Assembly: GCA_030998225.1 (NCBI GenBank)
Contig: JAPYXD010000696.1
Coordinates: 2,294,001 to 2,358,000, forward strand
From: Diplolepis rosae
Taxonomy: Eukaryota; Arthropoda; Insecta; Hymenoptera; Diplolepididae
Reading direction: 5' to 3'
DNA length: 64,000 nucleotides
In this document: piece by piece, positions 50,377 to 64,000 of the stretch
How positions within the stretch are numbered: the first letter of the stretch is position 1
Layout of the letters: every line of letters starts with the position of its first letter
Program-made: the position numbers and the translations under genes
Notes under the pieces: generated by a model
Seen by the model: only the letters and a program-made list of their open reading frames with translations
Database searches by the model: none
What the model was told of the DNA's origin: nothing

Positions 50377-50773
50377 TGTCACGTCCCGCGACGCATTAGA
50401 ATGTACTTTTGGCACGGGCTAGGTCTAGAGAGAAATCTGGGGAAATTACTAAAAGAGATAGAAAACCACCTATTCAAAAGAGAGGTATAAATTATTTGAT
50501 TATTTATTTAATTTAAATATTTGAAATAATTATATTTTTACCTCATTATTTTATTTCCAAATGAAGAGATACAAATTTCATTTCAAATTATATTGTTATT
50601 AAAAATAAGTAAACAAATTAAAAATAAATTTTACTAATCTCATTTTATTTTTCTTCAAAAACAAATTTTATATATAGTTTTTTTTATTGTTATAAACAAT
50701 CGAATAATTTAAATAACAATAAACAATCTAAGACAACGCTCAATACAAAATATTGTAAATTTATAATGACTTA

Positions 50774-51722
50774 ATGTCAAAACCAAATATCCCTTTAGAA
50801 TCTACCCCGAAAGTTATAACACGTAGTCAAGCTAAACAAGATAGTCAGCTTGCAAAAATAGTCGATTTGAACCAAAAGGGTAATTTAAAAATAAATCCAA
50901 TTAGAAATAGAGAATATTCAACTGATAATAAATGCCAAAATATCCCTAATCCAATCCCTATACAGAACAAGAATTAGATAACACTCTTAAGTTAGATGAT
51001 TCAAGTTTAGACAAGACTCTAATTAATAATCAAAATATATCAAGTGAAAATTCAGAAAAAACTAGCGGGTTTCATTCAAGTTTCTGTCCAGATTTAGGCA
51101 TTGTAACAGGATCTAGTAATCAAGATCAAACTCTAACGAACGAATTATCTTATTTTGACGAATTCAATTTGCTAAGCTCAACGGTAATAACAATAGATAA
51201 TAAAACTTTGAATGAAAGATTGGAAATCGCATTGGCACGCGAATCTATAATTAGTAACAATGACAGCGACGAAGACAAAAGCGACACAGAAGTCATAAAT
51301 CAAGATAATCCAGTAATAGTAAATAACGAAGAAATAGCCGTAGTCATACCCAATAGCCAGCAGGTATCCTTACGCGACGCGCTAGAGGTGGTCCCATTGT
51401 TCGACGGAAGCAACCTCCTATTGTCACATTTTATTGAGGGTTGCATGGAGGCAAAGGCAATGCTACCGACACCTGCAGCTCAAGAAAACCTCGCAAGGTT
51501 ATTAAGAGGTAAATTAACTGGAGAAGCTAGAAAATGCATTTTTGGTTCAACTTATGCAACAATAGAAGAATTGATAGAAAAATTGAAAAGAGTAATGCCC
51601 CTGCAAAAAGCGTGTACCAGTTACAGGGAGAATTAGGTAATACATTTATGTGGGAAAGAGAAAATGTACTTTCCTATGCTGCTAGGATAAAAGAAATAAT
51701 TTTCCGAATAACAATTTTTTAA
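50774..51722 (+). pseudogene. Retroviral gag
   Basis: The Met at 50774 opens a basic N-terminus that ends in a stop at 50977; the frame changes twice. From about 51169 an acidic segment precedes VSLRDALEVVPLFDGS, the entry of the errantivirus-type capsid; MEAKAMLP, LRGKLTGEARKCIFGS and IEELIEKLK follow in family order. After a shift near 51610 the end reads YQLQGELGN and YAARIKEI. This is the structural precursor, broken by one stop and two shifts. Confidence 0.75.
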
Positions 51723-52190
51723 GAAATAAAAATTATAATTGTAATAACAATAACAATAATAATTTGCAAAATAGAAATAATAATTATAGAAACAATAAGA
51801 ATAATTTTTTACAACAAAGATACGACAATTATAATAATTTTCTTAGAAATTTTTACAATAATAGATTTTACAAAATTATTTATATTTATTTATATTATAA
51901 ATATATTATTATTTATAAATAAATATTATAATATTATAATATTATATTATAATAATATTATAATATAATAATATTATAAATATTATTATTTATATTATAT
52001 TTTACAAAATAGATTTTTACAGAATAATAAAACTCAACAAAATTTAAATTATACTGAAATAATTTGCAATTACTGTAAAAAACCCGGTAATTTAGTACGA
52101 GACTGCAAGATACGACCAAATAGCCAATCACAAACAGCTCATCAGGAAAACTCCAAAGCTATCCCCAGCACGGGTGCACTGAGGAAAGCA
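51723..52190 (+). pseudogene. gag C-terminus: Asn-rich tract and degenerate zinc knuckle
   Basis: The first part encodes a run rich in Asn; a (TA)-rich expansion at 51870-52010 disrupts it. CNYCKKPGNLVRDC near 52062-52103 is a CCHC knuckle in which the His position is Asn. Such knuckles bind genomic RNA during packaging; the substitution would abolish zinc binding. Confidence 0.65.
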
Positions 52191-52204
52191 TAAATCGAGA
52201 ACCA

Positions 52205-52993
52205 ATGGCATCCACTTCTAACGATCATACAACAACAACAATAAATATTTCAAAGTCCACTTCAATTCCATCAATTATAATATCAACGCAAGGTTTAAAA
52301 AATCCAACACACATGATGATTGACACTGGTGCTGCTCGAAATTTAATTAAACAAAAGGTTCTCAACCCTGAAGTACCAATAAATAGCCAAAACGTATTAA
52401 AACTTACAGAAATTAATGATTTACCACTTTACAGATTAGGACAGGTAAAAATAAACATTTTCGGTTATCCAACGATATTTAACATTATTCCCAATGAAGA
52501 TTATTAGGATCAGAATTTTTTCAAGATAATAGTGGGAATATAAACTATACTTCAAAATGCTTAGAAATTGAGAACCACTGTTACCCTTTTAAATCTACCA
52601 ATAAATTTACTATTCCAGCTCGAACAGTTACAACATTTTATATTAATATAAAAAACACAGAAAAGAGTGAAGGGTATGTACCTCGATTACATATCCAAGA
52701 TGGCGTTTACATAGGAGACGCAGTTGTAAAAAATCGCAAAGGAACAGCTTATTTAAAATTTGCAAACACAAATGAAATACCAATAACATTATCAGTCCCA
52801 ATAGTTAATTAAGAAGATTTTGAAGAAAAAGAATGTTATAAACAAATTAAAAATTTACATAATTTTAAGCAAACAAATAACGAAGATTTATCAAATAAAA
52901 TATCAAATAACTTTTCAAGAACTGACATTTCTCTGATTAACACGTGTAAAATTTATAATGTAACAGAAGAAGACAGAGTGGAATGTATTTAAA
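52205..52993 (+). pseudogene. Retroviral protease region
   Basis: MMIDTGAARNLI near 52312 carries the D-T-G active site of retroviral aspartic proteases. The first frame ends at 52507; a shift gives a continuation through IPARTVTTFYINI and GVYIGDAVVKN, as in errantivirus pol before reverse transcriptase. Two shifts and two stops occur before 53000. Confidence 0.75.
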
Positions 52994-52999
52994 AAATTT

Positions 53000-54564
53000 C
53001 TTCGATTAGACCATTTAAATCAAGATGAATATGAACATGTAGAAAAATTAATTGAAAATAATGCAGACAGATTTAAAATCCCAGGAGAACCACTTGAAGG
53101 TACTAATGTATTACAAAATTCAATCCCTACTGTAGATGACGCTCCAATTTTTTCAAGACAATATAGATTTCCCCCAGTTCACAAGGAAGAAATTACAAGA
53201 CAAGTCAATGAATTATTAAAAAATAAAATAATTAAGCCCTCGAAATCACAACATAACACTCCGGTGTGGATATTTCCTAAAAACACTGATTCTCAAGGAA
53301 AAATAAAATGGAGAATGGTTCTTGATTTTCGTAAATTAAATGCAAAAACAATTAGCGATTTGTATCCTCTACCTAATATAAACGATATACTTGATTCTCT
53401 AGGATCAGCAAAATATTTTTCAGTGTTTGATTTAGCTACCGGTTTTCACCATATAAAAAAATGGATCCAAAAGACTCGCATAAAACCGCGTTTTCTACAT
53501 CTCACGGTCATTACGAATTCGATGAATGCCTTTCGGTTTAAAAACTGCACCAGGCACATTTTAGAGATTAATGGATTCAACATTCACTGGATTAATCGGC
53601 ACGGAACTTTTTGTATATCTTGATGACATAGTTATATATGCAAATACTCTAGAAGAGCACGAAATTAAATTTAACAATTTAGCAGAAAGACTTTGAAAAG
53701 CGAATCTTCATTTATAACCAGACAAATGCGAGTTTTTACGACCCGAAGTAGGATATTTAGGTCATATAATTGATAAAAATGGAGTACGTCCAGATCCAAA
53801 AAAGATAATAGCTGTAAAAAACTTTCCAGTCCCAAAAACACAGAAAAATATTAAACAATTTTTAGGCTTAGCAGGATATTACAGACGATTTATTGATGGA
53901 TTTTCAAAAATTGCAAGTCCTTTAGATCAACTTCTGAAAAAAGATATACCTTTTAATTGGACAGAAAAACAACAAGCAGCATTCGATATTTTAAAAGCAA
54001 AATTATGTGAAGAACTACTTTTACAGCGACCTGCTTTTTCTCAACCTTTTATACTCACAACAGATGCCTCAGGATTTGCAATAGGAGGTATTTTATCACA
54101 AGGTAAAATAGGTAAAGATAAACCAATAGAATATGCATCACGTAGTCTAAGTGAAACTGAGAAAAAATATACATATGAGAAAGAAGCCCTTTCTATAATA
54201 TTTTGTGAAACTCATTTTCGTCCTTATTTGTATGAAAGAAAATTTACTTTTGTAGCCGATCACAAACCTCTAGTTTGGTTTCAAAATTCTAAAGACCCTT
54301 GTTCACGAGTTTCACGTTGGAGATTGAAATTCGCAGAATATGATTTTGATGTAATTTACAAAGCAGGAAAAATGAATGTAAATGCAGACGCTCTCTCAAG
54401 AAACCCTCTTGATAATAACAAAGATGACCAAGACAAAATGTTTTCCAAGAAAACTTTTACAAGAAAAAGACAAGAAAACTCTAAAAATGAGGTAAGACCT
54501 TCAAAACGAAGAAACTTGAATCCAGAAATCGTACCAGACGACGTAGATCGTTTTAGCGAAATTT
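53000..54564 (+). pseudogene. Reverse transcriptase and RNase H
   Basis: WRMVLDFRKLN and FSVFDLATGFHHI (first catalytic Asp, near 53428) lie in one frame; a shift at about 53460 leads on to the MPFGL box and to YLDD near 53616. GYLGHIID and FLGLAGYYRRFIDGFS follow, then RNase H with LTTDASGFAIGG (near 54057), EKEALSII, VADHKPLVW and NADALSRN (near 54383). The polymerase core is complete apart from two shifts and three stops. An FB element interrupts right after. Confidence 0.85.
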
Positions 54565-63207: not shown

Positions 63208-63464
63208 CACAACTTAGCTTTTTTGAAACCGAAGTAACATTACCCGTCCGAATAGGTCACATTGTTACTAATGACTTATATTGTACCTTAAACCTATCTA
63301 GCCTCGACTGCTCCCTTTGCAATACACAAATTTTTTACATGCAGCAAAAAGCAGATTTATGCGTAACTTGTGCCGAACGTGTAATTCATTCATACCAACA
63401 AGAAGCATTGTATAAAGACGTCGATTCCGAAGCATCCACTATTATTTATGATAACAACGAATAA
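63204..63464 (+). CDS. CxxC zinc-binding protein B, second ORF
   Basis: 86 residues from the AUG; the frame is also open upstream to CEDC, coded before the Met. Within it are C28, CSLC and LCVTC pairs (residues 36-39, 52-55), the same order as gene A, and an acidic tail. Family not recognised. Confidence 0.5.
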   Translation: MTQLSFFETEVTLPVRIGHIVTNDLYCTLNLSSLDCSLCNTQIFYMQQKADLCVTCAERVIHSYQQEALYKDVDSEASTIIYDNNE

Positions 63465-63466
63465 AA

Positions 63467-63706
63467 ATGATAAATCAATCCATATTTTTTATTATTCTTT
63501 TTTCTAAATATAAACAATATCTATTTTCCTTTTTAACTTTTTATTCGTTGTTTAAAATCATATTGCAGATACATCAGTACTTCTTTCTTAACCGCCATAA
63601 TGTAACAACAAACTTTAATAAATTAAAATGTTCTATCGGCAAAAAAAAAAAAAAAAACAAACTTTTTTGGTACATCTTAAAACAGACCACTGTTTTCTCT
63701 GCATGA
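63467..63706 (+). CDS. Hydrophobic small ORF
   Basis: 79 residues starting 2 nt after the preceding stop. It is rich in Ile, Phe, Leu and Tyr (SIFFIILFSKYKQYLFSFL) and includes a poly-Lys run from an A18 tract. A second overlapping frame (63628-63825) includes CFLC. Either could be chance in AT-rich sequence. Confidence 0.25.
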   Translation: MINQSIFFIILFSKYKQYLFSFLTFYSLFKIILQIHQYFFLNRHNVTTNFNKLKCSIGKKKKKNKLFWYILKQTTVFSA

Positions 63707-63821
63707 AATATCTCTTTGAGTTAGGAAACGCGGAAAGTGAATATACCAAAAAACACAAAAGTATTAACATAAAACTAACTAACTTTAGAATTTTAATAAA
63801 TTTAATCATCAACTCAAAGAG

Positions 63822-63836
63822 GTAATTCTTTTGCAG
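63822..63836 (+). promoter_or_regulatory. Candidate 3' splice acceptor before the edge ORF
   Basis: taattcttttgcag ends at 63836; an AUG lies 10 nt downstream at 63847. Confidence 0.55.
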
Positions 63837-63846
63837 ATCAAAACAA

Positions 63847-64000
63847 TGGCCTTGCAGACAAGAGACCTATCGAAAGGTACTGCTGTACAAGTTTTAATCG
63901 AGATAAGCATTGAGTGTGATTTCTCCGAACCCTCATATATTGTAAAATCGCTAGGGTTACAACAAGAGCTACCACCATTTGAAGCGACTTGCGAAATTTT
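63847..64000 (+). CDS. Accessory ORF open at the window edge
   Basis: 51 codons, starting MALQTRDLSKG and continuing past 64000. No stop and no recognisable domain in the visible part. Acceptor spacing and strand put it in the accessory module. Confidence 0.45.

Follow-up and report, generated by a model that had tools for sequence, protein, structure and literature searches.

A probable gypsy-type endogenous retrovirus in Diplolepis rosae that encodes a chuvirus-type envelope and several accessory genes

We analysed a 64,000-nucleotide stretch of the Diplolepis rosae genome (assembly GCA_030998225.1, contig JAPYXD010000696.1, positions 2,294,001 to 2,358,000, forward strand; hereafter the window), which from position 50377 to its end is occupied by a retroelement with a series of genes behind its integrase. 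A preliminary description, made from the sequence alone, had proposed an insect endogenous retrovirus in which gag and pol are followed by frames for a CARD, a chuvirus-type envelope (Env), a tandem double-stranded RNA-binding domain (dsRBD) protein, a membrane protein, two pairs of CxxC genes and an edge frame. A scan for open reading frames (ORFs) recovered every one of these frames in place on the plus strand, the edge frame from 63846, and both the Pfam domains and the joins between genes in other copies support a gypsy-type endogenous retroelement in which a module of several genes lies behind integrase. The locus is real; it is a decayed, dead copy and probably belongs to a dispersed endogenous retrovirus of gypsy type that encodes a chuvirus-type envelope together with several accessory genes.

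The retroviral core is recognizable by domain matches in Pfam. A first, broken part of pol (52205-54564, plus strand) retains pieces of protease (gag-asp_proteas, E 0.017, a weak match), reverse transcriptase (RVT_1, E 7.6e-6) and RNase H (RT_RNaseH, E 1.3e-5). A linker with AT-hook motifs (54815-55132, plus strand; AT_hook, 4e-5, two stretches) lies between RNase H and integrase. The integrase region itself (56703-58290, plus strand) comprises further linker, an H2C2 zinc finger (E 1.4e-18) and a core domain (rve, E 5.1e-14) at 57214-57924, and a C-terminal part containing TGPYE at 58041-58187 that is matched by two of the relatives described below, P0085 and P0088. Protease, reverse transcriptase, RNase H and integrase with H2C2 and rve thus follow one another on one strand in the order of Ty3/gypsy elements (Metaviridae), an assignment made without a tree and with a weak protease. 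Ahead of pol, the frame at 51169-51636 (plus strand) had no credible Pfam match and is taken as gag from its position.

Comparisons with other copies used relatives at E ≤0.001, namely 42 for the dsRBD protein, 48 for the CARD-like protein and 257 for integrase (the best 120 of the 257 were used). These sets hold predicted proteins only and are biased toward open frames, so that conservation of the CARD-like and dsRBD frames supports selection without measuring it. At least 70% identity to the window protein was reached by 46 of the 48 CARD relatives, 28 of the 42 dsRBD relatives and 55 integrase relatives among the best 120 of 257. Three integrase relatives in the same subset are assigned to Trichogramma kaykai, T. 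brassicae and the ant Cardiocondyla obscurior, and this is probably an element family of Hymenoptera.

Behind integrase, past a perfect 90-nt palindrome (58295-58384; 45+45, no spacer) that separates the integrase end from the next gene, lies an open CARD-like gene encoding 93 aa (58518-58799, plus strand). The window protein matches the Pfam CARD profile at E 0.0028, below the family cut-off; among the 43 proteins scanned (window and 42 of the 48 relatives), 25 match at E ≤0.1 (best 1.3e-5), CARD being the one death-fold family listed for them. The CARD identity is profile-supported and putative. The frame is kept across the family, with exactly 93 residues in 23 of 48 relatives and gap-free alignment even in a pair with just 62 of 93 identities.

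The envelope gene (58919-60948, plus strand) gave a match covering positions 30-580 of the 653 in PF24664, the Monjiviricetes/chuvirus fusion family, at E 9.3e-208. It is interrupted twice: a signal-peptide-like start (ATG 58919) is out of frame with the ectodomain in the main ORF (58954-60675), and one stop at 60675 precedes a tail (60676-60948) that continues the profile at positions 583-650 (E 6.6e-8).

Next comes the dsRBD gene (60959-61615, plus strand), which matches Pfam dsrm at E 1.1e-9; of the 37 proteins scanned (the window protein and 36 of the 42 found as its relatives), 26 match at E ≤0.01 (best 4.1e-13). From these profile matches the second dsRBD is a firm prediction; a possible N-terminal one lacks a profile match and shows the helix-strand-strand-strand-helix order in a low-confidence model (predicted local distance difference test, pLDDT, 43). 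The window protein tracks its relatives to about 61543 and then diverges, so that their C-terminus is missing, and with it the C-terminal CxxC motif present in 11 of 42 relatives. Between two full-length dsRBD proteins, 178 of 245 columns are identical and 3 gap residues occur. One relative, P0009, carries after the dsRBD an extra frame of 96 residues with no Pfam match and no match in the window, so an additional gene may be present in other copies.

The remaining frames, for which the Pfam scan gave no family above its cut-off, are small. One with a single hydrophobic stretch (TM, for transmembrane; 61861-62142, plus strand) is followed by zinc-ribbon-like gene 1 (62485-62894, plus strand) and zinc-ribbon-like gene 2 (63034-63464, plus strand), each consisting of two overlapping frames, and by the edge frame (63846-64000, plus strand), which is open at the window end and has one in-frame ATG 9 nt after an acceptor-like site. 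The two zinc genes are clearly alike in their 3' halves (alignment score 41, attained by none of 500 shuffles) and weakly so in their 5' halves (score attained by 15 of 500 shuffles). Rather than two gene pairs, as first described, the CxxC frames seem to be two paralogues, both of them divided between two frames. The CARD, dsRBD and CxxC frames had also been described as uninterrupted, which stands for the CARD-like gene; it is not supported for the dsRBD gene, short of its relatives' C-terminus, or for the CxxC genes.

Taken together, these frames exceed what chance would provide. From 58291 to 64000 there are 7 ATG-initiated ORFs of at least 80 aa on the plus strand and 0 on the minus strand, whereas 500 second-order Markov simulations averaged 0.6 and 0.4, with a largest plus-strand count of 4 and a longest ORF of 156 aa (496 aa observed). 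The downstream part alone (61620-64000) holds 3 such ORFs, a number reached in 1 of 1000 simulations, and we rejected chance ORFs as the whole explanation on the strength of this excess. Base usage by codon position is strongly structured in Env and integrase and moderately so in CARD (P 0.017), dsRBD (0.003) and TM (0.007). Zinc gene 2 shows a moderate signal in its second half (P 0.006) and none in its first (0.2), and both frames of zinc gene 1 lack it (0.4). Strand composition is A-rich with C over G from pol through the accessory genes, save for an insertion in pol.

That integrase and the accessory genes form one dispersed element is indicated by the way they are joined in other copies. 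We aligned 210 relatives to the window and examined 12 more closely. Seven of the 210 span two blocks: integrase and CARD are joined in three (P0085, P0088 and P0187, with three different break points), CARD and the Env start in two (P0087, colinear with the window, and P0060, with a deletion), the Env end and the dsRBD start in one (P0042, colinear with the window), and CARD and the zinc region in one (P0086). The last match, to 63086-63163 in zinc gene 2, is 92% identical in a frame that differs from those of the ORFs and is therefore a similarity at the DNA level. A further protein, P0192, joins RNase H to integrase within pol; weak second matches to pol in the dsRBD relatives P0031, P0037 and P0039 were taken as chance. 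All join proteins except P0087 and P0042 lack intervening stretches, which fits a decaying retroelement family. Through these joins integrase, CARD, Env and dsRBD are linked in series, and the zinc region is connected with CARD. The preliminary description would have been undone had the downstream ORFs been absent from other copies or had an element boundary lain between integrase and CARD. Neither was found: CARD, Env, dsRBD and a zinc piece recur, joined to one another or to integrase, and the integrase-CARD interval holds the palindrome and no LTR (long terminal repeat), known repeat or element boundary that we could find.

The left boundary of the element is supported by an interrupted repeat. 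A repeat copy at 50119-50377 is truncated where the 5' LTR begins with TGTCACGTCCCGCGAC (50377-50394, plus strand), while two more copies of this repeat extend at least 83 bases past the point of interruption. The remainder of the cut repeat (like 47329-47411) was not found downstream of 50377 within the window. The element therefore begins at 50377, and its far end with the 3' LTR probably lies outside the window, unless the remainder has been lost. Upstream, 46186-50377 holds small AT-rich repeats containing CGTAAAGCTAT units in nested direct and inverted copies, and one of these repeats also occurs in pol at 54565-54787.

The description of pol as broken was borne out: it is disrupted in many places and has been invaded twice. 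The smaller insertion is this repeat (54565-54787, no strand assigned), with 82-94% copies near 36.4-36.8, 46.5-47.1 and 49.2-49.7 kb. The larger (55133-56405, minus strand, left end approximate) is a reversed LTR-like segment with internal repeats and a base skew opposite to that of its flanks. Its terminal 18 bases, at 56388-56405, are the one further occurrence of the 18-mer at 50377-50394, reversed and with one mismatch, so that 17 of 18 equal the element's own start. Beyond these 18 bases no further similarity between the insertion and the element's start was found; the insertion may come from a related family. Elsewhere in the window, a tandem array at 38591-39418 (339-nt unit, 2.4 copies) contains two tRNA-Ala-like genes with anticodon ggc.

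How the accessory genes might be expressed is hinted at by acceptor-like sites, defined as YAG behind a 12-mer with at least 7 of 12 pyrimidines, within 15 nt of an ATG. Such sites end 1-9 nt upstream of the ATGs of CARD, Env, dsRBD, zinc gene 1, zinc gene 2 and the edge frame (TM is without one), that is, at 6 of 7 gene ATGs, and among the remaining ATGs of the region at 11 of 89 (Fisher test, 8e-5). In a less selective test they occur at 7 of 14 first-ATG ORFs of at least 40 aa and, among shorter ORFs, at 7 of 49 (P 0.009); they were seen at 0 of 7 minus-strand ORFs and at 9 of 85 plus-strand ORFs in 1-50000. Separate splicing of the accessory genes is plausible but unproven.

Several observations weigh against a single element with a spliced accessory module. 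The acceptor pattern was noticed beforehand and tested afterwards, and it fades as the rule is tightened, with 3 of 7 versus 6 of 89 ATGs at 8 or more pyrimidines (Fisher 0.017) and 1 of 7 versus 2 of 89 at 9 or more (0.21). The less selective test likewise gives P values of 0.08, 0.08, 0.32 and 0.18 at cut-offs of 45, 50, 60 and 80 aa, an effect due in part to second halves of split genes joining the list while the short open Env start drops out. No strong donor-like site, judged by a matrix from general knowledge, stands out upstream of gag, and within the window neither a 3' LTR nor a primer-binding site was found, nor was the end of the 5' LTR recognized. The CARD-like protein is modelled as helical at middling confidence (pLDDT 62), and a search of the PDB with this model found no CARD. 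The evidence for other copies covers neither TM nor the edge frame, and the links between genes are protein fragments, mostly from short contigs and some possibly chimeric, with no second copy as DNA; three separate integrase-CARD joins nevertheless make misassembly unlikely as the whole explanation.

Insect gypsy elements are as a rule described as carrying gag, pol and at most env. Errantiviruses (gypsy, ZAM, TED) resemble the present element in having an insect gypsy-type pol and an env, but theirs is of baculovirus-F type, whereas here a PF24664 Env is accompanied by CARD-like, dsRBD and zinc genes. The likeness to errantiviruses drawn in the preliminary description is not supported, the Env being of chuvirus type, and we rejected the errantivirus label, there being no F-protein family among the Pfam matches listed. 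Vertebrate complex retroviruses likewise have several small genes after pol, and possibly share spliced expression, but their pol belongs to another family and no accessory gene was recognized as homologous.

Further parallels come from the open-licence literature in PubMed Central (PMC). A passing remark in PMC12440569 describes errantivirus env as baculovirus-F-like; the same source led us to reject Troyka as a relative, as its termini are CG...CG and the element here begins TG. The mosquito element Anakin (PMC7642597) also carries a chuvirus-derived glycoprotein within an LTR retroelement, but its pol is BEL/Pao, whereas here pol is gypsy-type and Env has further accessory genes beside it; no BEL/Pao-specific family is among the Pfam matches listed for the pol pieces, a comparison of pieces only and without a tree. 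The planarian Burro elements (PMC6431247), giant gypsy elements, combine gypsy pol, an env with mononegavirus-like matches and the apoptosis-related domains BCL2 and BIR, but all within a single giant polyprotein whose env part precedes protease; the present element has separate genes after integrase and a CARD-like and a dsRBD protein. Bdelloid rotifer LTR elements (PMC5408684) similarly have captured ORFs behind pol, their ORF3 encoding a paramyxovirus-like env, a lipase, an exonuclease or a TM or coiled-coil protein; here there are at least six frames, of different kinds save for env and the TM frame. For Hymenoptera, PMC10084718 reports gypsy fragments beside chuvirus-type glycoproteins and no clear evidence for capture by gypsy; in the published work consulted, capture of chuvirus glycoproteins is by BEL/Pao and not clearly by gypsy. 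Searches of the open-licence PMC literature listed no paper recognizable as describing CARD, dsRBD and chuvirus-type Env genes together in a gypsy element, which is no proof of absence.

We propose that one dispersed element has the order LTR-gag-pol-CARD-Env-dsRBD-TM-zinc1-zinc2-further gene(s), with a 3' LTR outside the window. Gag-pol would be made from full-length RNA and each downstream gene from its own spliced RNA, through the acceptor-like site just upstream of its ATG. The chuvirus-type Env would allow cell-to-cell and horizontal spread. The predicted dsRBD protein would bind RNA, as a silencing suppressor or an RNA chaperone, and most likely shield the element's double-stranded RNA from small-RNA silencing. 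The CARD-like protein would most likely act as a decoy, competing in the host CARD-CARD contacts of cell-death signalling; the zinc proteins may be regulators or RNA-binding cofactors. We tentatively suggest, at somewhat less than an even chance, an independent complex retrovirus in the insect gypsy lineage that evolved, around a chuvirus-derived Env, a separately spliced counter-defence cassette (a dsRNA-binding suppressor of silencing, a CARD-type antagonist of cell death and zinc regulators), and whose members are the hidden carriers of many hymenopteran 'chuvirus glycoprotein' fossils.

Other arrangements would account for parts of these data. A gypsy element ending after integrase could merely adjoin an independent virus-derived gene block, the two being co-copied by segmental duplication. 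The palindrome between integrase and CARD speaks for such neighbours, as do insect chuvirus glycoproteins known without clear retroelement capture (PMC10084718), but the integrase-CARD joins differ in their break points, CARD copies have diverged at up to one third of their residues, no LTR or known repeat boundary was found between the two genes, and the cut repeat's remainder does not recur in the window; we consider this improbable. We hold it similarly doubtful that a gypsy element captured Env alone and that the small frames are chance ORFs or functionless passenger fragments: the CARD and dsRBD frames are retained across diverged copies, ORFs exceed the simulations and the 3' halves of the zinc genes are paralogous, even though no family scored above its cut-off for the TM, zinc and edge frames and zinc gene 1 has no codon-position signal.

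A further alternative accepts the same element and overlaps with our proposal, differing in function only: the accessory proteins might help to assemble particles and package RNA instead of countering host defences. This is a genuine possibility, if on the unlikely side, and we count no point against it; that 11 of 42 dsRBD relatives end in a CxxC motif and that the CARD assignment is weak both favour it. On this reading, the dsRBD with a C-terminal CxxC would be an RNA chaperone and the CARD-like bundle a scaffold.

If instead the accessory genes form a counter-defence cassette, the element would offer a natural example of how a retroelement, by carrying RNA-binding and cell-death-domain-like genes of its own, arms itself against apoptosis and small-RNA silencing. 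In a survey of ants, 224 of 227 Mono-Chu glycoprotein fossils fell into ant-specific clades without close exogenous relatives (PMC6540820), clades that elements of the present kind could explain. More generally, if true, the proposal would make directly testable why the genomes of ants and other Hymenoptera are so rich in chuvirus-type glycoproteins, which often lie next to gypsy fragments (PMC10084718, PMC6540820).

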